A program made the translations under genes and the position numbers. Under the pieces are notes generated by a model, which searched no databases, was not told where the DNA came from, and saw nothing but the letters and a program-made list of their open reading frames with translations. A stretch of DNA of 64,000 nucleotides. Source: a sulfur-oxidizing endosymbiont of Gigantopelta aegis. Its GTDB lineage: Bacteria; Pseudomonadota; Gammaproteobacteria; GRL18. Positions within the stretch are counted from its first letter, which is position 1. Each line of letters begins with the position of its first letter. Location of the stretch: positions 2,219,157 to 2,283,156 of the forward strand of contig NZ_JAEHGE010000001.1 in the NCBI RefSeq assembly GCF_016097415.1, given 5' to 3'. This document shows, piece by piece, positions 2,191-62,977 of the stretch.

Positions 2191-3090
2191 TTATGAACCA
2201 ATCAAGCCCGCGATGATTAAGCCCACGACAATATAAATACTGCCTTCAATCGCCCCTACAGCAATATTGCCCTGCTGTCCCACTTCTTCACCAATGTTAA
2301 TGCCATGTAAGACAGCATGACGAATAATGATCGCAACGACAGTCAGCAAAACTAATAAAAACAGCGCAATAGCAAACCATAAGATAAAGACTGTACTTAA
2401 GGCGGAGGCATCAAAATCAACCGCAGTGAAGGCGGCACTGACAGCAATAGCAATACCAATACGATAGGCACTGAAGCGTAAGGCCAGGGCAATATTCTCA
2501 CCCTCAATTGCCGTATGCAATTGTTGATTATCATGTCGCTTAGCATAGACTTTCACGCGATACAGAGTGGCCAGTGCCATAATGATTTGTGAGGCAACAA
2601 AGCTGGCGATCACAGCAATCATTGCCATCGTAGTATCACCATCAACCCAGGACATTGCACCTTTAATAATAATGGCAGTGGCAATCATATTGCAGGCATC
2701 AATAATACTGGCGGCAATATTCCCCTGCATGATTTGATCATGAATCGAGAGGTGTGGAAATGACAGGCGATCAAAGATAATACGGGTAAGCCACATGAGT
2801 AGAATGCCGACGACACCAAATGACAGCATCATAATGGCTTCATTGGCCAGGTTATAACCGGCATCACCGGATATCACGCCCATCAACATAATACTGACGG
2901 CAATCATTGCCCCGGCTAAGGAGACGCCAAAGGCCTTATTATTTTTTTGGGAAATTTCATCCACGGCGGACACATTACTGACAATACCGGCCAAATAGCG
3001 CATGCCACTCATTAAGGCGATGGCAATAGTGAAATCCAGTAGATAATAGAGCGCCAGATCCAGCTCAACATTAACAAATTCGGTAAACAT
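2191..3090 (-). CDS. DUF350 (UPF0719, YjfL-like) membrane protein
   Basis: A 299-residue protein with about eight hydrophobic helices. It looks like a duplication of the roughly 130-residue DUF350 unit: the segments AFGVSLAGAMIAVSIMLMG and GNIAVGAIEGSIYIVVGLII are typical of each unit's gene-proximal and distal ends, and GNIAASIIDACNMIATAIII is a second copy of the latter. DUF350 proteins (E. coli YjfL) are inner-membrane proteins of unknown biochemical function. They commonly sit beside PspA-like, DUF2491, DUF2170 and polyamine genes, as here. It lies 11 bp downstream of the Ser-rich lipoprotein gene and is probably co-transcribed with it. A channel or membrane-sensing role is only a guess. 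Confidence 0.8.
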   Translation of the reverse strand: MFTEFVNVELDLALYYLLDFTIAIALMSGMRYLAGIVSNVSAVDEISQKNNKAFGVSLAGAMIAVSIMLMGVISGDAGYNLANEAIMMLSFGVVGILLMWLTRIIFDRLSFPHLSIHDQIMQGNIAASIIDACNMIATAIIIKGAMSWVDGDTTMAMIAVIASFVASQIIMALATLYRVKVYAKRHDNQQLHTAIEGENIALALRFSAYRIGIAIAVSAAFTAVDFDASALSTVFILWFAIALFLLVLLTVVAIIIRHAVLHGINIGEEVGQQGNIAVGAIEGSIYIVVGLIIAGLIGS

Positions 3091-3101
3091 AATTGATCTC
3101 C

Positions 3102-4067
3102 TTATTTCCCTGAGCGTGAGCTACGGGAACTTGAATATGATGAACTGCGACTGCTTGAGCCATAAGAACTGGAACGGTTACCACTGGAGGCGCTTTTATA
3201 ACCGGTAGAAGTGCTTTTAGTGCCAAAACTGCTAGAGCCCGCTTTAGAGGCAGCATAGCTTGAGCTACGACTAGAAGTTGTGGCGTAGCGTTGCTTAGTG
3301 CTGCTGCTAGGGCGATTATATTTGCTGGGATAGCGTTTACTCAGATTATAATTGCGGCTGATGTCGCTATTACTTCCCCAGCGGCTACGGCCATAATTAT
3401 TATAGTAACTATAGCTTGGACGTGAGGACCAGGAGTCATAATAACTGCGGCCACCAAAGACATTACTGAACATGGAATACATGCCATACCATTCCCAGAA
3501 TGAGCGGCCGCTGCTGTCTTGTTTCCAGTTACCATAAGAAGGGTTGCCAACTAGGGCGTTACTTTTTTGTGCCGTATCTATTTTGGATGCGGGCACATTG
3601 ATGACTGCTAATTCTCCATCGGAGAGTGAGGCAAGGGTGTTGACCACATCCGCCAGACTGCTATTAAACTCATAAGCATCTGCACCGGCTTGAATCAGGC
3701 TTAATTCATTGAGTGATGTATTAGCGGATTGTTCTGAAGTGGGCTCTAAATTAACCGCAGCCAGACGTTTAGTGAGTCCGGTATAAGCCTTGCCCTGAGA
3801 GGTGGCTTCTTTACGCAATAGCGTCGCAATGTCAGCATATTCGGGTTTTGATTGGCTGAGTTGGGTTGCGTATTTATCAATCAACAGTGCATTGACGAGT
3901 TGTTTATCATCTAATTGCTGTTTTAAATACTCCACATTACTGACAGCACGCTGATGTGGGCCGGTTAATTGCTCCACAAAGCGGTTGCCACAGCCGGATA
4001 ATAATAACACCGTGATCAATAATAGCCAGATCCGATAATGAAAGACTATCGACCTTTTTTGATACAT
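3102..4067 (-). CDS. lipoprotein with Ser/Tyr/Arg-rich C-terminal half, function unknown
   Basis: The ATG at 4067 is preferred over the upstream in-frame ATG at 4082 because GGAG lies about 9 bases before it. The protein starts YQKRS and has a hydrophobic stretch ending in LLLSGCGN, a clear lipobox, so it should be lipid-anchored. About 170 residues of helical, charged sequence follow. The last 110 or so residues are low complexity, made of Ser, Tyr, Arg and Gly with repeated SRSSSY-like motifs, and are probably disordered. I do not recognise the family. Its place between the K+ channel and DUF350 genes suggests it is the periplasmic component of the same island. The Ser codons are mostly AGT/AGC/TCA mixtures, so this is not a simple nucleotide repeat. 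Confidence 0.7.
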   Translation of the reverse strand: MYQKRSIVFHYRIWLLLITVLLLSGCGNRFVEQLTGPHQRAVSNVEYLKQQLDDKQLVNALLIDKYATQLSQSKPEYADIATLLRKEATSQGKAYTGLTKRLAAVNLEPTSEQSANTSLNELSLIQAGADAYEFNSSLADVVNTLASLSDGELAVINVPASKIDTAQKSNALVGNPSYGNWKQDSSGRSFWEWYGMYSMFSNVFGGRSYYDSWSSRPSYSYYNNYGRSRWGSNSDISRNYNLSKRYPSKYNRPSSSTKQRYATTSSRSSSYAASKAGSSSFGTKSTSTGYKSASSGNRSSSYGSSSRSSSYSSSRSSRSGK

Positions 4068-4150
4068 GATTGCTTGCTCCATCGAAATTATTCCCTTGAA
4101 ATCTACTCTTTTAAAACGACTTAAGCCTAAATAACTTTATTTGGGAAAAG

Positions 4151-5248
4151 TCAGTTCAAGATAAATGCCTGAATATCATTATTGCTATAACTGGCGGTAT
4201 CTTTGCAGATAGTAATTAATGCTTTAATATCCGGCTTTGTCTGTGCAGGAGGATTATAAATCATTTTATCGCTCTGTTCATCAATATAAGCCACCGCGAT
4301 GCCGGCATTATTATTGATAAGACGTGAGACTATCTCGCTCCAAGCTAAGTTTTTGATACTAATGTCATAACGCTGATAGCCATCGTCTTCACTGGTAAAC
4401 ATATTTTCTATGATTTGTTCAGAACCGGGGGCATCAAAGGCGCGGACAATCATTTCAGGATAGGCACGAATCGGGCGTAAGACAATATTGGCTCTAGCAC
4501 TTTGCAGGCGCTGACGGTTTTTATCTTCAACGCATTCGGCCAATACTTTAGCTTGCACATTTAACTCTTTGAGGCGATGCAGAATATCAAAGGTACGGGC
4601 ATCAGAACTATCATCATTATCGTCCTTGGTCAGCACGATAATGTCCTGAGCCTGAGCCACACAGACTTCATTCAAATCATCAATATTACCTGAGTCACCA
4701 TGATAATGAACCACATTGCCCAAACGCACAATATAATCGGGCAAACCATCAGGAAAATGTCGGGTTAATAAATAAATGGGCGTTTCCTCGGAATAACTCG
4801 ATGCGCGAAACTGTTTGATCAAACGTTGTAGATAGCGACCGCCTGAATGACTAGGGGTATTGAGAATAACAATGTGTTTATCCATTTTCCAGCTCCAATG
4901 ACCTCTTTTTTTCTTATCACGAACTTCAAGACGGTAGTCAAAATAATCGCCAGCCACTTTAGCCAGAATAAAAATGCCACCCAAGTAAAGTAGTATAACC
5001 GTTGCCATCCGACCGGGTAAAGTGGCGGCAGAAATATCGCCATAGCCGACCGTGGTGGCGGTGGTCAGTGTTAGCCAAAGTGAGTCACCAAAACTAAACT
5101 GCTCAAAGACCATCATAAAGACAATATGCAGGGAAAAAAGAATCAATAAAATCGCGCAGGAACGAATAATGCCTTGCACTAAATTGTGCCGTGCATTGAG
5201 GTCAATCCGGCCTTTTCGCCGTGCAAATAAATGAAGTATTGAATACAT
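4151..5248 (-). CDS. two-helix potassium channel with cytoplasmic RCK-like domain
   Basis: Residues 30-50 and 80-100 are membrane helices flanking a pore loop with the selectivity filter TTATTVGYGD near residue 65. The cytoplasmic part from about residue 125 (KHIVILNTPSHSGG) has the Rossmann-like layout of a TrkA-N/RCK domain. Its glycine motif is atypical (NTPSHSGG instead of GxGxxG), so NAD binding is uncertain. The acidic DDNDDSSDARTFDIL stretch is typical of RCK channel subunits. This should be an inner-membrane ion channel. K+ selectivity is a family inference from TVGYGD. It sits between a secreted beta-helix gene and the lipoprotein/DUF350 pair, on the same strand as pspA and speDE. 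Confidence 0.85.
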   Translation of the reverse strand: MYSILHLFARRKGRIDLNARHNLVQGIIRSCAILLILFSLHIVFMMVFEQFSFGDSLWLTLTTATTVGYGDISAATLPGRMATVILLYLGGIFILAKVAGDYFDYRLEVRDKKKRGHWSWKMDKHIVILNTPSHSGGRYLQRLIKQFRASSYSEETPIYLLTRHFPDGLPDYIVRLGNVVHYHGDSGNIDDLNEVCVAQAQDIIVLTKDDNDDSSDARTFDILHRLKELNVQAKVLAECVEDKNRQRLQSARANIVLRPIRAYPEMIVRAFDAPGSEQIIENMFTSEDDGYQRYDISIKNLAWSEIVSRLINNNAGIAVAYIDEQSDKMIYNPPAQTKPDIKALITICKDTASYSNNDIQAFILN

Positions 5249-5440
5249 ATTTGGCTATAAGTTTGCTGTCTGATTACAGAGTCTCAGACTAACAGATAGT
5301 GAGGAAATACTCTATTGTTAATGTAAAAATGTAGGCTAGTATTATCCCGATTAGCGTTTTGAATAATGACTGCTGAAAGACAATACCCCCTGCCATGCCA
5401 TTCGTTTGAAATAATGGCTGGTAAAGCGCTTTTTGGTATT

Positions 5441-7546
5441 TTATTTAGGCTTGGCTTTGCCACAGATATCAACGGGACACGGATTGCCTAATTGTTCCCA
5501 GATATAAGAGGTTAGCGTAATCGGGCCACCATATAGTGCCGTGCCTTCCGCCGCAAATCCCCGTGCCCCAGAGAGAGTAGCATTAGGGCCTACCGTTTCC
5601 AGCACACCACTGCGAGTGGGACCGGTATAACTATAATCAGCAAACTTTCGTTTGAGCAAATCCTCATGTGGAAATGGCCATAATGGAATATTGGTTTCAA
5701 CGTTCCAACCACTTTCCCCATTAAAACTGCCGGACTTTCCTAATTGCATCAGGATGCTAGCACCGACACGCTGTTGATTTTTGCCTGCGCTTTGTAGGCT
5801 TGCGCCAGACTCAATGCGAGGTAAATACTTAAGGCCGTTTTGAGTGGGATCAGAGTCGATTGCATTGTTAAAATTAATGCTCCCGCCATAACTGCCTGAG
5901 CTGACTAAAGGGCTGCTGAGGCTGCCAAATAAATTGCTATAGTCAAAGGTCAGTTCGCTGGATGCCCAAGCAAAGCGGCCTCTATTTTGCACCTGACGAC
6001 CATCCCAGCCCATTTGATAAACAATCGAATTACTGATATCTAAAGGGTTTTTGCGATGATAGAAGAAAGCACGGCCACTACCACCTTCAATACTTTCATA
6101 GCCGGGTGTAACATCGACACGGCCTAGGGTCAGTTGATCGGTGATGATATAACCATCACCCATCATAAAGCTGGCAATGCTGCCATTGCCATAAAGGAAA
6201 CGGGTCATATTGCCACCCCAGCCAATACTATTGCGAATATATTGGCGACCATCGGGATTGCTGAGATTCATACCAGTAAAAGGTAAATCATTATTGATAG
6301 CGATACTGGATAAATATTGGTTATTATCAGGATAAGAGCAACCTGTTGCAGCAAAGCCAAGGGAGTAGCCTAGATTTTTATGCCGTACCCAAAAACGTTT
6401 TGAATCACTATCAATGGCAATCACATTTTGCCAGACAATATTATTGCTACAATAGGTTTGGAAAACACCGACAGGTTCCCGGCCAATATAGGCATCGATT
6501 CGGGACACCGCACGGCGCACTACAGCATCTCTATTTTTCTGAAAAATAATCTGATAACGTGCATGCCCCCAGGTATATACGCCTTCGAGTAAGGCATGAT
6601 GTGTGCGGGTAATATAAATGTTTGTAGTGCCACAACTGCTACCGGTAAAACCACAATTGGCATTACGTCCTGAATCGGATGAACCCATATCAATTAATTT
6701 TATATGATGTAACGCTGACATTCTGATGCCAGAACTCAGTGCATTGCGAATATGCATCCCCTTGAGGGCGATATAATTGCGTGGTGTTGACTTTAGTGTT
6801 GTGTTACCCCAAAGTTCAGGCTCATTAAAATTACCATAAATATGCATTAACTCTTCATAAAGGCCTTCACCATCTAATATCACCTGGCCTGGATCTTCGG
6901 CAATAACTGTAGTGTAGGCACTGCTCGTACCTGAAGGCGGTTGCGCACCACCTGAGTTGGCATTGATGAAATTTTTCTCATCACCGAGATAAACACCATT
7001 ACGTACAATCAGCGTGTCCCCCGATTGCATTGCTCTGACGCCATCAGCAATGGTTTTGTAAACTTCCTGTGGACCGGCATAAAATACTCGCTGAGAACCG
7101 ATGCTGAGCACCCAAACCTGTGTTGACTTATTGCCCTGAGCATCAATGGCTTCTACTCCAAAATGAAAGCTTTCGGTGGGCAAATCGGCGGCAATTGTCC
7201 AACTGACATTGCCCGTGTCAGGATCGACAAGCATCGCATCGGGACCATAGGTTTTTTTCCACGATGCCTTAGTCTTGCCTACTAGGCTGGGTTGAAATTG
7301 ATAAAGCACACCGGCTTGCGTTATCTGGTCGGCGATAGTTTTTATTTTGACGGGACTAGCAGGCGGTGGTGTTTCAGGTGGCAGTACAGCTTGTTTCAAT
7401 AGGGTTAGCTTTAATCCTGTTGTCATACCGGAATTGGCATAAGCCACAACCGCTGGAATTGCAGTCAAAGTAGTGATTATTAAAGCGCTTAATAATCCTT
7501 GGTAAGAGGAGTGCCTGAGATTTTTAAAAAAAATAAAAAAACGCAT
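5441..7546 (-). CDS. large secreted right-handed beta-helix protein
   Basis: A 701-residue protein with an N-terminal signal/anchor helix (LLSALIITTLTAIPAVVAYA). Residues 60-145 form a putative Ig-like fold with the phrase DPDTGNVSWTI. From about residue 150 (VYKTIADGVRAMQSGDTLIV) it has the repeating turns of a parallel beta-helix, as in pectate-lyase-like and NosD-like carbohydrate-binding or -degrading proteins. Several cysteines (NCGFTGSSCG, CSYPD, NPCPVDICG) may form disulfides, which fits an extracytoplasmic location. No catalytic motif is recognisable, so its substrate is unknown. It lies inside the PspA/polyamine island but has no obvious functional link to it. The bases just upstream hold a repeat element, so it may be a later insertion. 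Confidence 0.7.
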   Translation of the reverse strand: MRFFIFFKNLRHSSYQGLLSALIITTLTAIPAVVAYANSGMTTGLKLTLLKQAVLPPETPPPASPVKIKTIADQITQAGVLYQFQPSLVGKTKASWKKTYGPDAMLVDPDTGNVSWTIAADLPTESFHFGVEAIDAQGNKSTQVWVLSIGSQRVFYAGPQEVYKTIADGVRAMQSGDTLIVRNGVYLGDEKNFINANSGGAQPPSGTSSAYTTVIAEDPGQVILDGEGLYEELMHIYGNFNEPELWGNTTLKSTPRNYIALKGMHIRNALSSGIRMSALHHIKLIDMGSSDSGRNANCGFTGSSCGTTNIYITRTHHALLEGVYTWGHARYQIIFQKNRDAVVRRAVSRIDAYIGREPVGVFQTYCSNNIVWQNVIAIDSDSKRFWVRHKNLGYSLGFAATGCSYPDNNQYLSSIAINNDLPFTGMNLSNPDGRQYIRNSIGWGGNMTRFLYGNGSIASFMMGDGYIITDQLTLGRVDVTPGYESIEGGSGRAFFYHRKNPLDISNSIVYQMGWDGRQVQNRGRFAWASSELTFDYSNLFGSLSSPLVSSGSYGGSINFNNAIDSDPTQNGLKYLPRIESGASLQSAGKNQQRVGASILMQLGKSGSFNGESGWNVETNIPLWPFPHEDLLKRKFADYSYTGPTRSGVLETVGPNATLSGARGFAAEGTALYGGPITLTSYIWEQLGNPCPVDICGKAKPK

Positions 7547-7680
7547 GAGTTCACCTGAAATGTAGAATGCTTTATCTTAGGCTTATTGTTTTAGAATATC
7601 TTTAATGGGGGTCACAATATAGGCAATTTATATAGCTAGTGTCCATCCGTTTATTCTAGAATTATTTGATAATTTTGACC

Positions 7681-7843
7681 GTAGGGTGGGCACGCTTTTT
7701 GTGCCCACGCTGAAAGTGTACATAATCCTAGAAACCTCAGTTGAATATTCAGTACACTGGACGCTCGCAGTAGGTTCAACTGAGGTTTCTAGGATAATAA
7801 GCGCTTGAGTCAGCGTGGGCAGATAAAGCCATGCCCACCCTAC
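7681..7843. repeat. nested palindromic repeat element (MITE/REP-like)
   Basis: The 418-base gap between the beta-helix gene and the small unknown gene holds this structure and no gene. Outer arms are GTAGGGTGGGCA at 7681-7692 and its exact complement at 7832-7843. A second pair, GCCCACGCTG at 7703-7712 and CAGCGTGGGC at 7811-7820, lies inside. The innermost perfect 21-bp arms are at 7725-7745 and 7775-7795. The inner part shares the 19-mer TCGCAGTAGGTTCAACTGA (7765-7783) with the element at 61606-61781. The nesting suggests one palindromic element inserted into another. A transcript in either direction would form a long hairpin that could attenuate the downstream gene. Confidence 0.8.
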
Positions 7844-7964
7844 GGTTCTGCCAACGCGGTATTTGTTAACACGCAATTTGTGGCGGTGACACCCTCGTAT
7901 GATGAAACTAAGAAGTACTTAGAAACAAGGTTAAAGTTAAATTTGAGTTAGGTTTGATTTAAGC

Positions 7965-12307: not shown

Positions 12308-12424
12308 TAGAATCATAAAATTCAATGGCATAAATGTCCACAATAATATTATCTCGGTATTAGGAGTGTGTTGGCGTTCATAGCATTATTAGTTTATTCT
12401 ATTCGTTCACTAATGGAGGGATAC

Positions 12425-13755
12425 ATGGTACTGATCAAGCAAATTGTGCGTTTTATTTTAGTCATCCTATTTCGCGTAGAAGTAGAAGGCATCGAAAATT
12501 ATTATCTGGCTGGCAAACGAGTGATGATCATTGCCAATCACACCTCATTCTTAGATGCCGTCCTGTTATCCATTTTCCTCCCCGACCGAATCACCTTCGC
12601 AATTAACACCGAAATAGCAAAAAAATGGTGGGTCAGCCCCTTTGGCAAAATAGTACGCCTATTCCCTATGGATCCCGTTAATCCATTATCCATCAAAGCC
12701 TTCATTAAAGATCTCGAACAAGACAAACGCGCCGTTATTTTTCCTGAAGGTCGTATCACGGTCACTGGCACCTTGATGAAAATCTATGATGGCCCAGGTC
12801 TCATCGCGCTAAAATCAGGTGCTATGATCTTACCCATCCGCATTGATGGCGCACAATATTCAATTTTTTCACGCCTAAAAGGCATCGAACGTCGGCAATT
12901 ATTTCCAAAAATAAAACTCACGCTCTTAGCACCACAAAAAATTGAACTGGATGATGAGATTGCCGGACGCGATCGCCGTGCCGCAGCAGGCAAGATCCTG
13001 AAAAAAATCATGACCGATATGATTTACTCTACCAGTAATAATCACCTGACCATTATGGACAAGCTATTACAAGCCAGAGCTATTCATGGTGCGGGTCAGG
13101 TAGTGTTAGAAGATGTAGAGCGTCAGCCACTGAATTATCGCAAACTACTACTCAAGAGCAGTGTACTATCACGCCTAATGGCCAGACAAACCCAAGAAAA
13201 AGACGTGGTGGGTTTATTGCTACCCAATACCAATGCCACGGTGCTGAGTTTCTTTGCCTTGCAAAGCATAGGCCGAGTGCCCGCCATGCTAAATTATACC
13301 GCAGGCTATAAAGGCTTATTATCTGCCTTAGAAACCGCGCAAATAAAAACCGTTTATACCTCAAAACGCTTTATTGAACTAGCAAAAATGGATGATCTTA
13401 TTGCACTGCTTAACGAGCAAGTGAACATCATCTATCTGGAAGATCTCAAACAAATGATCACGGGACAAGATAAAGCCTATGGCATTGCCTGTAGTCTCTT
13501 GCCAAAAATCATCTATGCCCAACAATGGCATTCTGTGCAACCGGATGATCCAGCCGTGGTATTATTTACTTCAGGCTCAGAAGGTGTACCCAAAGGTGTG
13601 GTGTTATCCCACAAGAACATTCTCAGCAATATGATCCAACTGGGCACAAAAATCGACTTCAATAAAAATGATGTGATTTTAAATGCCTTACCCTTATTTC
13701 ATTCTTTTGGCCTGAGCACAGCGACTTTAGTTTCCGTGTTAAATGGCATGAAAGT
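12425..13755 (+). pseudogene. aas: aas-like acyltransferase/acyl-ACP synthetase, 5' part, split by an IS
   Basis: The ATG at 12425 is chosen because GGAGGG lies just before it; an in-frame GTG at 12368 would add 19 residues. Residues about 30-215 are a PlsC-type lysophospholipid acyltransferase (NHTSFLD, the HX4D motif, and FPEGR). After that comes an AMP-binding adenylation domain with the P-loop-like LFTSGSEGVPKGVVLSHKN. The pair re-acylates 2-acylglycerophosphoethanolamine and activates fatty acids. The reading frame runs to NGMKV and is then interrupted by IS DNA at 13756. The remaining part resumes at 15004 in the same frame: joining ATGAAAGT to CTTTTTATATCC gives MKVFLYP. The gene is broken but its sequence is otherwise intact, which suggests a recent insertion. 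Confidence 0.9.
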
Positions 13756-13763
13756 TAATGTGG

Positions 13764-13874
13764 GTAAAACGTCTGAAAAAAGAATTGGCAAAAGTGATTC
13801 AGGAGCGTGATTTATTAAAAAGGCCACAGCGTACTTTGCAAGGGAAACTTTGTGAAGTACGCATGGATAACTGA
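13764..13874 (+). pseudogene. truncated IS3 OrfA (last 36 codons)
   Basis: The frame starting at GTAAAACG reads [20 protein letters not shown] and ends at the TGA at 13872-13874. It is the leucine-rich C-terminal helix of OrfA, identical in sequence to the end of the intact orfA of the second copy. Its start and helix-turn-helix are removed by the deletion, so no OrfA protein and no OrfAB fusion can be made from this copy. Confidence 0.85.
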
Positions 13875-14715
13875 TCAGGCTAAAGATTACCCGGTAACGA
13901 TTCTGTGCCGTTTTATGGATGTTTCCCGTAGTTGCTATTATGATTGGGTTAGCTCTCCTAAAACGGATAGAGAGAAAGAAAATGAAGCGCTTACTGAGCA
14001 GCTAAAAAACTGTTTGAAGACAGTCGCAAGACTTATGGAACCCGTCGTCTTAAAAAGAAAACTGGCTGAAAAAGGCGTTCATATAAGCCGCCGGAGAATT
14101 GGTCGATTAATGAAAAAAGCCGGTTTGTTTTGTAAAACGAAGAGACGCTTTAAAGCGACGACTAATTCCAAGCATAATAAGCGTATATCTCCAAATTTAC
14201 TGGAAAGAGAGTTTACTGTCTCTCAACCTGATCGCTACTATGTGGGTGATATTACCTATATTGCCACCAAGGAAGGCTGGTTATATTTAGCGGTTGTCAT
14301 TGACTTATTCTCTAGGCAAATTGTTGGCTGGTCGATGGATGAGCGAATGAAAGCCAAGCTAGTCAATGATGCTTTACTGATGGCCATATGGAAGCGTAAA
14401 CCAATGGATGGATTGCTTTGGCATACTGACCGAGGTAGCCAATATGCCTCTGATAGTCATAGAAAAATATTGTCGGATCATAACATAATTCAGTCTATGA
14501 GCCGCAAAGGAAATTGCTGGGACAATGCTGTATCAGAGAGCTTCTTTCATAGTTTGAAAACTGAATTGACGCACCATTGTCGATTCAAAACCAGAGTAGA
14601 AGCAAAGCAGGCAATATTTGAATATATTGAGGTATTTTATAATCGGGAGCGACTTCATTCGGCTAATGATTATTTGTCACCAGTCGATTATGAAATACAG
14701 CAGGAAATAGCTTAA
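13852..14715 (+). CDS. IS3-family transposase OrfB, copy 1 (full-length frame)
   Basis: 287 residues from a GTG. The N-terminal part matches the HTH_21-type segment, and the integrase core holds the DDE triad: D in VGDITYI, D in [10 protein letters not shown] and E in DNAVSESFF. It would carry out cut-and-join chemistry only as part of an OrfAB fusion, which this copy cannot make. Residues around 50-70 ([14 protein letters not shown]) look wrong for the family. The usual segment, [17 protein letters not shown], is present in another frame between the A-runs at 14004-14009 and 14058-14061. Both copies share this, so their common ancestor already had the compensated double shift and may already have been impaired. 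Confidence 0.85.
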
Positions 14716-15003
14716 ATCGATTGATTGAAGAGGGGTAAAAGGCGACATAAATGCCGCCCATTACCGACGGCCATCGGCTCCTCAGCCTGTGCCGTGAAGA
14801 TATTGTAACAGGATCATTACCGTTGTGAAAATACCTTGGGTGAATGGAACGGCTCTATCGTTCCAGAGGGCAAAGCCCTTTCTCTTCATCTGTTTAAAGT
14901 TAACATGAGAAACTAAAATGATAGGAAATACAAAATGACAAAAATCACTTGAAACAGCCAAAAAAATATTTAGAAAACTGTCCGGAAAAGTGTTGACACA
15001 TCA

Positions 15004-15832
15004 AGTCTTTTTATATCCCTCACCACTGCATTATCGCATCATTCCCGAAGTAGCTTATGACATTAATGCTACTATGTTATTTGGTACTAATACCTTCCTC
15101 AAAGGTTATGCAAAATTTGCCCATAGCTATGATTTTTTCAGTATCCGTTATGTCTGTGCCGGAGCAGAAGCGGTGCAAAAAGAAACTCGTGAACTTTATG
15201 CAGAGAAGTTTGGCTTACGAATTTTAGAAGGCTATGGTGCCACTGAAACCAGCCCGGTGATTTCTATTAATACTCCGATGGATTATAAAACCGGCACCGT
15301 AGGTACGATGCTACCGGGTATGGACTATCATTTAAAAGCAGTGCCGGGTATTGAAGAAGGCGGACAACTTTTTGTCAGTGGCCCTAATATTATGCGTGGC
15401 TATTTTCGCAGTGACAATCCCGGTGTGCTGGAACCGGCAGAATCAGAATTCGGCCCAGGTTGGTATGACACGGGTGATATTGTTGATATTGATGATGATG
15501 GCTTTGTGACGATCAAGGGGCGGGTCAAGCGCTTTGCCAAAATTGGTGGTGAGATGGTGTCGCTGTCGATGGTGGAAGAAATGGTGGCGCAGTGCTGGCC
15601 GGATGAAATGCATGGTGCGGTGAGTTTGCCGGATAGTGCAAAAGGAGAGAAGATTATCTTGTTGACGACGCGTGAGGGTGCGCTGAGGAAGGAGCTTTCT
15701 GCTTGGGCTAAGAAGAGTAAGATTGGGGAGTTGAATGTGCCTAAGACGATTATTGTGGTTAAGAAGTTGCCGTTGTTGGGGACGGGGAAGATTGATTATC
15801 AGGGCTTGAAGGAAGTGGCGGAGTTGGGGTAA
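15004..15832 (+). pseudogene. aas: aas-like gene, 3' part of the IS-split gene
   Basis: This continues the adenylation domain: FLYPSPLHYRIIPE, then LEGYGATETSPV (A5 motif), WYDTGDIVDIDDDGF (A7/A8) and the catalytic lysine region GTGKIDYQGLKE near the C-terminus. It is in frame with the upstream part once the IS and one AGT are removed. The apparent start at 14990 is only the IS end read through. The last 200 bases use strikingly many G-ending codons compared with the rest, a local compositional oddity. A 12-bp AT-only hairpin follows the stop. Confidence 0.9.
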
Positions 15833-27195: not shown

Positions 27196-28298
27196 TGATA
27201 GAAAATGAGCGCATTATTTCCGGGGGAGAGGTACAGAACGAAGATGTGCTGGATCGGGCTATTCGTCCTAAAACACTCAAGGATTATGTTGGTCAGCCTT
27301 CGGTTTGTGAGCAGATGGAGATTTTTATTCCCGCAGCCAGAAATCGTCAAGAGGCTTTGGATCATGTTTTGATTTTTGGCCCCCCAGGCTTGGGCAAGAC
27401 AACTTTATCGCATATTATTGCTAACGAGATGGGGGTTAATTTACGTCAAACTTCGGGGCCGGTATTAGAGCGTCCGGGTGATTTGGCAGCCTTATTGACC
27501 AATCTTGAAGAAGGCGATGTGTTATTTATTGATGAAATTCATCGTTTGAGTGCCGTGGTCGAAGAGGTGCTGTATCCGGCGATGGAAGATAATCAGTTGG
27601 ATATTATGATTGGTGAAGGGCCTGCAGCACGTTCGATTAAGTTGGATTTGCCACCCTTTACCTTGATTGGTGCGACCACACGAGCTGGTTTATTGACTTC
27701 GCCTTTGCGGGATCGATTCGGCATTGTGCAACGTCTGGAATTTTATTCGATTGCTGATTTAACTCATATTGTTGGTCGTTCGGCGAGTATCATGGGTATT
27801 GAAGTTGAGCCTCATGGTGCGAGTGAAATTGCTAAACGTTCACGGGGGACACCGCGAATTGCTAATCGCTTGCTCAGACGAGTACGTGATTATGCGGAAG
27901 TTAAAGCTGACGGTCGGGTTGATGTTTCGGTGGCGGATCGGGCTTTGAATATGCTGGAAGTTGATCCCATGGGCTTTGATATGATGGATCGCAAGTTGAT
28001 GCTGAGTATCATTGAAAAATTTGACGGGGGGCCAGTTGGCGTGGAGAATCTTGCCGCCGCTATCAGTGAAGAAAAAGGTACGATTGAAGATGTCTTGGAA
28101 CCGTTCTTAATTCAGCAGGGCTATATTATGCGTACGCCCCGGGGACGAGTTGCAACGGATAAGGCTTATTTGCACTTTGGTTTAGAAAAGAATGGTTTAG
28201 AAAAGAATGGTTTAGAAAAGAATGGTTTAGAAAAGAATGGTTTAGAAAAGAATGGTTTAGAAAAGAATGGTCTGGAAAAGACGGGTTTAGAAAAATAG
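27195..28298 (+). CDS. ruvB: Holliday-junction helicase RuvB with repeated C-terminal tail
   Basis: 367 residues. Walker A is [10 protein letters not shown], Walker B DEIH, sensor 1 GATTRAG, and the C-terminal winged helix ends [23 protein letters not shown], where RuvB normally stops within a few residues. Here the frame continues with six GLEKN units, one GLEKT and a final GLEK, coded by a 15-bp tandem repeat that includes the stop codon. The AAA+ motor core is complete, so it should be functional. The tail is lysine- and glutamate-rich and probably helical. Confidence 0.95.
28179..28298. repeat. 15-bp coding minisatellite at the end of ruvB
   Basis: Unit GGTTTAGAAAAGAAT. Six identical units run from 28179 to 28268, a seventh (28269-28283) has diverged (GGTCTGGAAAAGACG), and the eighth (28284-28298) ends in the TAG stop. 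Because the unit is a multiple of three, copy-number change keeps the frame and only alters tail length. Confidence 0.98.
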
Positions 28299-28314
28299 GT
28301 CTCAGAGTCTTTTG

Positions 28315-28395
28315 GTAGGATGTGGTGAGGCACGAACCGCATCAAATCTGTTTGTTTAAAGCCATTGATGCGGTTCGTGCCTCACCACATCCTAC
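28315..28395. repeat. perfect 31-bp inverted repeat between ruvB and ybgC
   Basis: Arms at 28315-28345 and 28365-28395 are exact complements with a 19-base loop. The arms begin GTAGGATGTGGTGAGGCACG. Arms of this length with GTAGG/CCTAC ends recall mobile palindromic repeats; the element at 7681-7843 also has GTAGG/CCTAC ends. It would fold strongly in RNA from either strand and probably reduces transcription from ruvB into the tol operon, although no T-run follows. Confidence 0.9.
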
Positions 28396-34029: not shown

Positions 34030-34105
34030 GGGCCGTTAGCTCAGTTGGTAGAGCAGTGGACTTTTAATCCATTGGTCGTGAGTTCGAGTCTCACACGGCC
34101 CACCA
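34030..34105 (+). tRNA. tRNA-Lys (anticodon TTT)
   Basis: The acceptor stem GGGCCGT pairs with ACGGCCC. The D-loop is AGCTCAGTTGGTAGAGC, the anticodon arm has loop CTTTTAA with anticodon TTT, and the T-arm holds GTTCGAGTC. The CCA end is encoded (34103-34105). The sequence follows the gammaproteobacterial tRNA-Lys closely. It stands alone between cpoB and an unknown gene, as in many relatives. Confidence 0.97.
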
Positions 34106-46454: not shown

Positions 46455-46745
46455 TGATGTGTCAACACTTTTCCGGACAGTTTTCTAAATATTTTTTTGG
46501 CTGTTTCAAGTGATTTTTGTCATTTTGTATTTCCTATCATTTTAGTTTCTCATGTTAACTTTAAACAGATGAAGAGAAAGGGCTTTGCCCTCTGGAACGA
46601 TAGAGCCGTTCCATTCACCCAAGGTATTTTCACAACGGTAATGATCCTGTTACAATATCTTCACGGCACAGGCTGAGGAGCCGATGGCCGTCAACGGTAA
46701 TGGGCGGCATTTATGTCGCCTTTTACCCCTCTTCAATCAATCGAT

Positions 46746-47585
<840 letters not shown>

Positions 47586-47608
<23 letters not shown>

Positions 47609-47906
47609 AAAGTTTCCCTTGCAAAGTACGCTGTGGCCTTTTTAATAAATCACGCTCCTGAATCACTTTTGCCAATTCTTTTTTCAGACGTTTTACTTCA
47701 TCATAAATGTGTTCATCACTTCTATTGGCTACCGTCTTCACCGGTTTGGAATATTTACTGATCCAGGTATGTAGAGTATTTACATTAACACCTAGCTCCC
47801 TGGCAGTCTGAGAAACGGGTTGATCCGTCTCATTAGCTAATTTGACAGCTGATTCTTTAAATTCTGATGTATAGCTTTTATTCGGTTTTTTTGTTTGATC
47901 ATTCAT
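47586..47906 (-). CDS. IS3-family transposase OrfA, copy 2
   Basis: 106 residues: KKPNKSYTSEFKESAVKLAN, then PVSQTARELGVNVNTLHTWI (helix-turn-helix) and a leucine-rich helix [20 protein letters not shown] for oligomerisation. It recognises the IS ends and normally fuses to OrfB by a -1 frameshift in the overlap at 47586-47608. The overlap has no obvious A6G-type slippery site, which may add to the low activity of this copy. Confidence 0.9.
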
Positions 47907-60947: not shown

Positions 60948-61610
60948 ATGTTTACCGGTATTATACAAGCGATTGGCCAGGTGGCGACGATTGAAGCCAA
61001 AGGTCTGGATAGCCGTTTTTATATTAAAACAGGCGCTTTGGATCTCAGTGATGTCGCCATTGGTGATAGTATTGCCACCAATGGTATTTGTCTGACTGCG
61101 GTTAGTCTGCCTGGTGATGGGTTCTGGGCTGATGTGTCGGGTGAAACCTTGAAAAAAACCAGCTTTAAACAAATTAAAGTGGGTAGTCGGGTTAACTTGG
61201 AAAAGGCAGTATTGCCGACAACGCATCTCGGCGGACATCTGGTCAGCGGCCATGTGGATGGTCTGGGAAAAATAATTGAACGTAGTCATGCGGGACGCTC
61301 GATTCATTTTAAGATTAAAGCACCGGATACATTAGCAAAATACATTGCTGCCAAAGGCTCTATTTGTGTCAATGGCATTAGTCTGACAGTTAATGAAGTG
61401 AATGGCGCAATGTTTGAGCTGAATATTGTACCGCATACTTTAGACGAAACGACTTTATCCAGCGCTCAGTCCGGTGATGAAGTTAATCTTGAAGTCGATA
61501 TTATTGCCCGTTATCTGGAGCGTTTATTACTCGGTGATAAAGCCGCAGAGACAACGGGACAACAGGGTGTCACTATGGCTCTATTGGCTGAAAATGGCTT
61601 TTTAACCTAA
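60948..61610 (+). CDS. ribE: riboflavin synthase alpha chain RibE (RibC)
   Basis: 220 residues starting FTGIIQAIGQVATIEA, the lumazine-binding repeat, with the second copy from about residue 97 (THLGGHLVSGHVDGLGKI). Each repeat has the GIxLT/GISLTV motif (NGICLTAV, NGISLTVN). It dismutates two lumazines to riboflavin. The stop overlaps the start of the palindromic element at 61606. Confidence 0.95.
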   Translation: MFTGIIQAIGQVATIEAKGLDSRFYIKTGALDLSDVAIGDSIATNGICLTAVSLPGDGFWADVSGETLKKTSFKQIKVGSRVNLEKAVLPTTHLGGHLVSGHVDGLGKIIERSHAGRSIHFKIKAPDTLAKYIAAKGSICVNGISLTVNEVNGAMFELNIVPHTLDETTLSSAQSGDEVNLEVDIIARYLERLLLGDKAAETTGQQGVTMALLAENGFLT

Positions 61611-61781
61611 AATAATCAGTTGAATCGTAGCGAGAGCGACTTAGGTGCTGAAGATTAAGGGTTTTACAGGTTATTTTGGCTTTATTCGTAGTCACCCTAC
61701 GGGTGAAGTCAAAATGTTCTGGAAAATCCTTAAGATTCAGTGCATAAGGCGGTCGCAGTAGGTTCAACTGATTATTTTAGG
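61606..61781. repeat. 176-bp palindromic element between ribE and ribB
   Basis: The perfect arms CCTAAAATAATCAGTTGAA (61606-61624) and its complement (61763-61781) bracket an imperfect inner stem, TGCTGAAGATTAAGGGTTTT (61637 on) against AAAATCCTTAAGATTCAGTG. The 19-mer TCGCAGTAGGTTCAACTGA (61753-61771) is shared with the element at 7725-7795. The left arm overlaps the ribE stop. The rest of the 248-base gap shows no FMN-riboswitch consensus that I can find. Confidence 0.85.
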
Positions 61782-61858
61782 TTTAAGCCGCTAAAAATTC
61801 TGAAGCTGGGCTGTGTCCAGCCTATACATTACATTGTAAAAAAAGATGATAAAACACT

Positions 61859-62977
61859 ATGGCAAATTTTAATTCGATTGAAGAAATACTGGAAGATATC
61901 CGACAGGGAAATATGGTTATCATCGTAGATGATGAAGACCGTGAAAATGAAGGCGATCTTTTGATGGCGGCAAGTAAAGTCACCCCGGAAGATGTAAACT
62001 TTATGGCCACCAATGGCCGTGGTTTGATTTGTCTGACCTTGACACAACAACGTTGTAAGCAATTACAAATACCGTTGATGGTTGATAGCAATACCGCAGA
62101 ATACGGTACTAACTTCACCGTATCCATTGAGGCAGCGGCAGGTGTAACGACAGGTATTTCTGCCGGTGATAGGGCTGTGACGGTGCAGGCTGCCGTTGCC
62201 CCCGGTGCAAAACCTTCAGATATCGTGCAACCGGGACATATTTTTCCCTTAGAAGCGCAACCTGGCGGTGTTTTGACCCGTGCGGGTCATACTGAAGCGG
62301 GCTGTGATTTAGCACGTATAGCTGGCTTGGAACCATCAGCGATGATTGTTGAAATCCTCAATGAAGATGGCAGCATGGCCAGAAGACCAGATTTAGAAGC
62401 CTTTGCTGACAAGTTTGATTTAAAGATTGGTACCATTGCCGATTTGATTGAATATCGTCTGAAAAATGAACATTCAGTGGAAAAAGTCAGTGATTGTATT
62501 CTGCCGACAGATGCCGGTGATTTCCGTTTAGAAGCCTATCATGATGCTATTTCAGGTCAGGTACACCTTGCCATGATTAAGGGTGAGATTAATCCCGATG
62601 AGCCGGTTTTAGTCCGGGTACACATGGAGAATTCCTTCTGTGATATGTTGGGCGCAAAAATGGATGACTGTGGATGGCCTCTCAGTGATGTAATGCAACG
62701 CATGGACAAAGAAGGCAGCGGTGTCATTGTTATTTTACGCAGCAATGAAACCAGTTCAGAACTCACTCATCGCATGGATCATTATCAGAAATTACAACAG
62801 GGAAAACTGTCTTCTCACCCTGGCAAAACCAAAGATTTACGTACCTATGGCTTAGGTGCACAAATATTGAAATCTATCGGGGTTAAGCACATGAAAGTCA
62901 TGTCAGCACCGAAAAAAATACATGGTCTATCCGGTTTTGGATTGGAAGTAGTGGAATACTACAACTCAAAAGTTTAG
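61859..62977 (+). CDS. ribB: 3,4-dihydroxybutanone-4-phosphate synthase fused to degenerate GTP cyclohydrolase II (RibBX-type)
   Basis: 372 residues. The RibB half (1-200) is complete: DDEDRENEGDLLMAA, and TRAGHTEAGCDLARIAG. It makes the four-carbon unit of lumazine. The RibA-like half has RVHMENSFCDMLGAK and MDDCGWPLSDVM, where active GTP cyclohydrolase II has HSEC and CDCG. Two of the three zinc cysteines and the usual surrounding residues are changed, so the second half is probably inactive. A separate ribA is expected elsewhere. Confidence 0.9.
   Translation: MANFNSIEEILEDIRQGNMVIIVDDEDRENEGDLLMAASKVTPEDVNFMATNGRGLICLTLTQQRCKQLQIPLMVDSNTAEYGTNFTVSIEAAAGVTTGISAGDRAVTVQAAVAPGAKPSDIVQPGHIFPLEAQPGGVLTRAGHTEAGCDLARIAGLEPSAMIVEILNEDGSMARRPDLEAFADKFDLKIGTIADLIEYRLKNEHSVEKVSDCILPTDAGDFRLEAYHDAISGQVHLAMIKGEINPDEPVLVRVHMENSFCDMLGAKMDDCGWPLSDVMQRMDKEGSGVIVILRSNETSSELTHRMDHYQKLQQGKLSSHPGKTKDLRTYGLGAQILKSIGVKHMKVMSAPKKIHGLSGFGLEVVEYYNSKV

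Follow-up and report, generated by a model that had tools for sequence, protein, structure and literature searches.

A hairpin-forming MITE family with IS1380-type ends and a core that may be constrained as a folded strand

The two palindromic elements found in the window, by which we mean the whole stretch of 64,000 nucleotides analyzed here, belong with near certainty to a MITE family. Comparison of its copies makes it likely that this family is moved by IS1380 transposases, comprises two subfamilies with matched ends, and keeps its arms complementary both by template switching and by a constraint acting on the core as a folded strand. A sequence-only reading of the window had noticed a shared 19-mer, arm letters that differ between the elements (GAAACCT and AAATAAT) and yet pair perfectly within each, and CCTA/TAGG ends. 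All of this was confirmed: the 19-mer TCGCAGTAGGTTCAACTGA occurs exactly at both 7765-7783 and 61753-61771, with a chance expectation of 0.01 matches at ≤3 mismatches, the 19-base arms are complementary throughout, and both elements are bounded by CCTA...TAGG. Of the bounds proposed, 61606-61781 for the second element (copy B) was right, while the first element (copy A), placed at 7725-7795, exactly covers 7727-7793. The 5-bp direct repeats outside both copies (ATAAT and TTTAA) had been absent from that reading. The features are compiled in Table 1.

Table 1. Features of the two window copies and of related loci. Bare numbers are window positions; where a locus is named, numbers belong to that locus.
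Feature	Location	Strand	Remarks
Copy A, 67-bp short form of the MITE, minor (GAAACCT) subfamily	7727..7793	+	perfect terminal repeats, flanking ATAAT
Copy A target site duplication ATAAT	left 7722..7726, right 7794-7798	.	direct repeat on both sides
Copy A left terminal inverted repeat	7727..7745	+	CCTAGAAACCTCAGTTGAA, 19/19 complementary to 7775-7793
Copy A right terminal inverted repeat	7775..7793	+	TTCAACTGAGGTTTCTAGG
Copy B, full-length 176-bp MITE, major subfamily	61606..61781	+	both terminal repeats, flanking TTTAA; between ribE-like and ribBA-like ORFs
Copy B target site duplication TTTAA	left 61601..61605, right 61782-61786	.	direct repeat; single copy at empty site in L214 and L217
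Copy B left terminal inverted repeat	61606..61624	+	CCTAAAATAATCAGTTGAA; contains stop codon of upstream ORF
Copy B right terminal inverted repeat	61763..61781	+	TTCAACTGATTATTTTAGG; T-to-A change pairing with left arm
Copy B core, 138 nt	61625..61762	+	long imperfect hairpin, G-U-tolerant on + strand (RNAalifold, strand comparison, sister-pair tests)
Riboflavin-synthase-like (ribE-like) ORF, upstream of copy B	60948-61610
ribBA-like ORF, downstream of copy B	61859-62977
IS1380-type element	L096: 2680-4363		flanks ATAAA
IS1380-type element	L097: 3362-5041		flanks TTAAA
IS1380-type element	L139: 2127-3813		flanks ATGAT
Further IS1380-type elements	L143, L144, L145, L146, L192		WTNAW flanks
Y1_Tnp locus of source genome (G000)	L223, C1:213200-217200
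Y1_Tnp locus of source genome (G000)	L224, C1:3680800-3685200
Y1_Tnp locus of source genome (G000)	L225, C3:244800-248800

Folded as single-stranded DNA, each copy forms one long hairpin (z = -14.6 for copy A and -11.9 for copy B vs. shuffles), the value for copy A taking in an outer palindrome at 7678-7846. This other palindrome, CCGTAGGGTGGGCA...TGCCCACCCTACGG, in which copy A is nested, looks like a member of a GTAG-tagged REP family; its end gave 144 genome matches at ≤1 mismatch (control 1). The right arm of copy B reads ATTATTTT where its subfamily usually has ATTTTTTT.

Further copies, which the sequence-only reading had proposed to search for, are abundant in the source genome (4.91 Mb, 11 contigs). 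The 16-base core matched 89 times at ≤1 mismatch (reversed control 0) and the degenerate terminal repeat 195 times at ≤2 mismatches, compared to 2 for its control. Among 92 examined loci, 8 were dropped and both ends could be paired in 84. Exact 5-bp flanking repeats of the form WTNAW surround 68 of these 84 copies, T at position 2 and A at position 4 being found in 68/68, and exact 5-bp duplications were likewise seen in 40 of 54 copies from relatives (≤8 candidates scored per genome; 14 of 70 loci dropped as they did not show both ends). Copies usually measure 174-177 bp, and since this is too short to encode a transposase, the family is a small, multicopy MITE that does not bring its own. 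Other lengths are 37, 52, 55, 66, 67, 104, 164, 181, and 385 bp, of which the 37- and 55-bp forms read, by eye, as deletions between CAGT repeats. Crude ORF calling puts 83 copies outside long ORFs and one, copy A (L020), inside a TTG-started 82-aa frame that is taken to be spurious. The same crude calls gave no clear preference in orientation toward neighboring genes for the 84 copies (27 sense, 21 antisense, 20 convergent, 15 divergent, 1 undetermined). Two copies counted among the 84, L068 and L069, come from small contigs and seem to be near-duplicates of L052 and L039. Beyond the source genome, the consensus is present in 22 of 96 genomes searched (source genome included), 21 of the same bacterial family and one, G044, of another. 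A plasmid collection gave no match to the element, and viral contigs gave 0 matches to one exact pattern of one end type only.

The arms of the window copies differ because these copies stem from two subfamilies, each with its own matched ends. AAATAAT ends represent the majority, while GAAACCT ends go with a diverged core, at full length in L017, L036, and L105 and shortened in L016, L020, L054, and L085. One copy, L012, comprises one arm of each type. Among relatives, other end types such as CCTAAATAAAT, CCTAGAAAAAT, CCTAGAAAACG, and CCTAAAAACCT occur, and the arms of one copy are mostly alike. Within the young part of the family, the idea that arm changes keep pairing did not hold. We counted 91 substitutions in 51 near-identical young copies (those that are not 176 bp or have shifted or altered ends were omitted); of these, 63 affect paired positions, always without a matching change in the other arm. 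Thus, arms mutate independently here, which the sequence-only reading had listed among the outcomes that would speak against it. In the major line a T:T mismatch is usual at positions 8 and 169. It is kept by 46 of the 51 copies, while four (copy B included) carry T169A and one T8A, and all five changes restore pairing.

The terminal repeats CCTA..CAGTTGA in combination with 5-bp WTNAW duplications are an IS1380-type pattern. In 8 of 24 loci searched for paired ends, we found an IS1380-type element of 1.63-1.71 kb whose ends resemble CCTARAAANNNCAGTTGA and which has the same 5 bp, of the form WTNAW, on both sides. It is in these ends and AT-rich flanks that the MITE resembles the IS1380 family (ISEcp1 kind), although it is nearly always ≤176 bp long, lacks a transposase, and has a core that is one long hairpin. 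An IS1380-family match was obtained in 11 of 22 MITE-bearing genomes. The source genome has two clear IS1380-type copies, both broken into short frames, whose proteins match transpos_IS1380 below the curated cut-off; an intact IS1380 transposase was not seen there. Open stretches of 524 and 526 residues are present in L139 and L191, and L190 is the sole relative's transposase above the curated cut-off (flanks ATAAA, with more distant ends, CCCAGATAATCCATTAGA). Over its last 24-29 bp, the MITE agrees with the IS 3' ends of L139 and L193. Its apex, TCACCCTACGGGTGAAG, aligns to ≤2 bp with a hairpin close to the start of the IS gene in 6 of the 11 IS loci, although the E-values are weak (0.003 to 0.12), and the remainder of the core gave no match to IS1380 elements. 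Judged by these matches, the MITE may be an internal deletion of an IS1380 element. From its ends and target duplications, we infer that an IS1380 transposase would move its copies in trans. One candidate for an autonomous parent, L098 (8383-10464, 2.08 kb, perfect MITE ends), was rejected, because here an IS66-type insertion (PF03050 match, transpos_IS66 below cut-off), which has ends of its own and a duplication of 8 bp, GTCGCAGT, interrupts a MITE copy. In L097, at 2831-5571, a source-genome IS1380 copy seems, by eye, to be inserted in a Y1-transposase-like gene, the halves of which lie on both sides.

REP/REPIN elements are not known to duplicate their target site when moved. In favor of an origin of the present family from a RAYT (REP-associated tyrosine transposase), all three Y1_Tnp genes of the source genome have a MITE copy 0.6-1.0 kb away and the core contains GTAG motifs, the tag of one REP class in excerpts of PMC3733652. 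The proximity to such genes, which the sequence-only reading had proposed to check, did appear in the source genome, but not in the relatives, where of 43 Y1 matches in 14 genomes 30 were fetched and only one has a copy within the fetched flanks. In the source genome this proximity may be due to chance or to tolerant sites. With its 5-bp duplications and IS1380-type terminal repeats, the MITE does not combine absence of a target duplication with a position flanking RAYT genes, and a RAYT origin is unsupported; we regard it as very improbable that the MITE is of the REP/REPIN type and mobilized by a RAYT (Y1) transposase. GTAG REPs are palindromic intergenic repeats as well, but they measure 20-40 bp and have an unpaired GTAG end, in contrast to a MITE of 176 bp with terminal repeats and target duplication. 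In PMC3733652, an RNA function was suspected from the G-T pairs of REP stems.

That copy B is an insertion is evident from the gap between the riboflavin genes, whose names riboflavin-synthase-like (ribE-like) and ribBA-like were assigned by eye. Of 13 other genomes with a match, 11 were fetched, and in all 11 the orthologous gap is free of the element (among the loci, L220 stops ~140 bases downstream); L214 and L217 have TTTTTAAGCCG where the source genome reads TTTAA, element, TTTAA. The upstream ORF's stop codon, 61608-61610, now lies within the left end of copy B. Inside the ribBA-like ORF, a sub-threshold Rfam match to the Vibrio antisense RNA V_AS9 was obtained (39.6 bits vs. a gathering score of 50; L021 1726-1808, minus strand, equivalent to window 61980-62062), which may reflect coding conservation only.

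How, then, do arms stay complementary when single mutations in young copies are unpaired? One route is visible in the copies themselves. The sequence-only reading had suggested repair-based arm conversion, and multi-base opposite-strand tracts do exist, in 4 of 138 elements (L054, L085, L167, and L170). As conversion we counted 14-mers that are unlike any same-strand copy within 2 mismatches and exactly match the opposite strand of another copy; 53 such words were found, while the reversed and complemented controls of length 14 gave 0 each. In L167 the left arm is now the complement of the right arm, L170 shows an inverted apex with matched arms, and the middle of L054 is inverted relative to L020. 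From these patterns we infer that the tracts were left by template switching. Two other candidates were discarded: L087 turned out to be a reversed copy that contains a large insert and was reoriented for the final count, and L166 gave one word at lengths 11 and 12 and none at 14, length 11 also giving one match in the complemented control. Arms rewritten from the other arm and inverted loops are likewise known from quasipalindrome template-switch mutation (PMC8794818, PMC8604942, both in part), although those papers concern RNA genes and yeast coding genes and the present case a bacterial MITE family.

Between lineages, in contrast to the young copies, paired changes are present, as the test for paired substitutions proposed earlier revealed. 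The diverse set consisted of 54 elements, 5 from the source genome and 49 from relatives, after removal of L130, L170, L177, L012, and then 2 duplicates, and the fold for pair counting was taken from the major consensus. In 27 disjoint nearest-neighbor pairs we found 39 double changes, of which 34 lead from Watson-Crick to Watson-Crick, whereas random partners gave a mean of 1.9 such changes (largest 9 in 1000 partnerings) and slid partners ≤6. For the core alone the count is 26 vs. a mean of 1.8 (largest 9). The sister pairs are disjoint rather than fully independent: L110-L113 and L111-L133 have two identical double changes in common, and one distant pair, L162-L166, contributes 11 of the 39. 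Arms could in principle co-vary if both ends are bound by a single transposase and if end preferences differ between transposase lineages, and the variable positions of the MITE ends do vary in IS1380-type ends too. However, the two ends of one IS1380-type element differ at those positions in L096, L097, and L143, and 26 of the 34 pair-preserving double changes fall in the core, inside the terminal repeats. Such a preference may explain the ends, not the core, and as an account of the co-variation we consider it improbable. The element L130 (G044 C66, around 15259), from the other bacterial family, aligns poorly with the rest; its ends and lower stem are recognizable, and its apical stem is quite different yet complementary.

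The core furthermore differs between its two strands. What is G:T on one strand is A:C on the other, so that a requirement for DNA pairing alone would yield both at the same frequency. Instead, the + strand of the 54 elements has 12 columns with a G:T majority and 0 with an A:C majority. RNA folding is better on the + than on the - strand in 54/54 (mean -91.5 vs. -59.6 kcal/mol), and RNAalifold predicts 70 pairs for the + strand, with 97.5% standard cells and 35 pairs showing ≥2 Watson-Crick types, compared to 35 pairs for the - strand. Aligning arm to arm without allowing wobble still gave G:T 539 vs. A:C 103 in 52 elements of relatives. Among single sister differences in Watson-Crick-majority columns, the core shows 52 G:T, 11 A:C, and 30 other mismatches, whereas the terminal repeats, counted in the same way, show 9, 10, and 23. 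Eighteen of the 27 sister pairs favor G:T in the core, 1 shows the reverse, and 8 tie. With all paired columns included, G:T:A:C is 94:10 in the core vs. 8:10 in the terminal repeats (Fisher p = 3e-5). A weaker count, that of distinct pair types in Watson-Crick-majority columns, points in the same direction (G:T 37 vs. A:C 19).

Strand-biased mutation, for example in transcribed DNA, might produce a G:T excess as well, and G is indeed more frequent than C on the + strand of the major subfamily (0.247 vs. 0.153), while mismatches with G outnumber those with C. Against this, young mutations are unbiased (11 distinct changes from Watson-Crick to G:T and 12 to A:C in the 51 copies), as are the terminal repeats of the same elements (9:10), so we give this explanation little credit. 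A somewhat better, though still unlikely, alternative is that arms match by DNA processes only, through shared terminal-repeat ancestry and template switching, the G:T excess being a founder accident with no selection at the RNA level. Opposite-strand tracts do exist, standing G:T columns are shared by descent, the excess in distinct pair types is just 37 vs. 19, and template switching has been linked to how hairpins of RNA genes arise and are maintained (PMC8794818, in part). However, template switching, whichever strand it uses, does not account for a preference of G:T to A:C or for the confinement of the excess to the core, which is seen in sister differences and in all paired columns alike.

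Paired changes above controls together with strand-specific wobble tolerance are what a structured RNA presents. We therefore favor selection of the core as a folded + strand, most simply as RNA, from which the terminal repeats would be excluded. For the RNA reading as such the odds appear to us nearly even, with a slight leaning in its favor. Selection on structure, one of the two causes named by the sequence-only reading, is accordingly backed by the between-lineage changes and the G:T excess of the core, but not by the young copies, in which substitutions are unpaired and the T:T mismatch mostly persists, nor by the mixed arms of L012. No Rfam 15 family reaches its gathering score on the element, and across the window only a tRNA at 34030-34102 does. 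In 9 loci searched at E up to 1, eukaryotic microRNA models appeared in L124, L160, and L115, far below gathering scores. Within the copy B hairpin there is a tandem G-A/A-G internal loop at window 61653-61654 and 61734-61735 (element positions 48-49 and 129-130), which resembles sheared G:A motifs of RNA. Its two sides are retained in 45 and 51 of the 54 diverse elements, while adjoining pairs vary.

Taken together, the process that we envision would run as follows. While IS1380-family transposases would supply movement, template switching during replication of an imperfect palindrome would sometimes rewrite one arm from the other. The constraint on the core would act on a single folded strand, always of the same polarity and most likely + strand RNA, whereas the terminal repeats would evolve as DNA. 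One might guess that, owing to the RNA hairpin, read-through transcripts become compact or open to processing and intergenic insertions thereby less costly, and that G:U and G:A pairs keep the DNA from turning into a perfect, unstable palindrome. A wider and more tentative idea, to which we give slightly less than an even chance, is that the element is mobile as DNA via its terminal repeats while its core is a fixed-polarity structured RNA absent from Rfam; G:U and G:A pairs would then allow an RNA hairpin of ~70 pairs and yet an imperfect DNA palindrome tolerable to replication, a balance that template switching would both repair and threaten.

MITE transcripts are often said to fold, and whether this folding is selected is hard to test. 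The many diverged copies of the present family offer such a test with a built-in control, as the terminal repeats are free of wobble bias and the core is strongly biased. The same family provides natural bacterial examples of a palindrome arm rewritten from the other arm. With conversion and wobble bias in one family, DNA-level homogenization and RNA-level constraint thus become separable in one system.

ERIC, Correia/NEMIS, and QMITE elements have ends and target duplications that differ from those of the present MITE. They too are short and mostly intergenic, their transcripts are said to form stable stem-loops, and those of Correia and ERIC are cut by RNase III or RNase E (PMC10969869, in part); in contrast, the present MITE has a measured strand-specific pairing constraint limited to the core. 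The main text of that MITE review does not mention IS1380. The MITEs described for Thiomargarita are distinct from the present one, since one of them has a direct repeat of 10 bp and another ends in TATAG (PMC4853749, in part). In the open literature searched on MITEs with IS1380, template switching, and structured RNA, we found no earlier description of the present element.

The window contains further repeats. Insertion sequences that are almost the same and lie inverted to each other (by eye, with an IS3-type transposase) occupy 13764-15003 and 46455-47696, the former splitting an acyl-ACP-synthetase-like gene within 12368-15832. At 28148-28395, tandem 15-bp repeats are followed by a hairpin with perfectly complementary arms of 31 nt starting GTAGGATGTGG.
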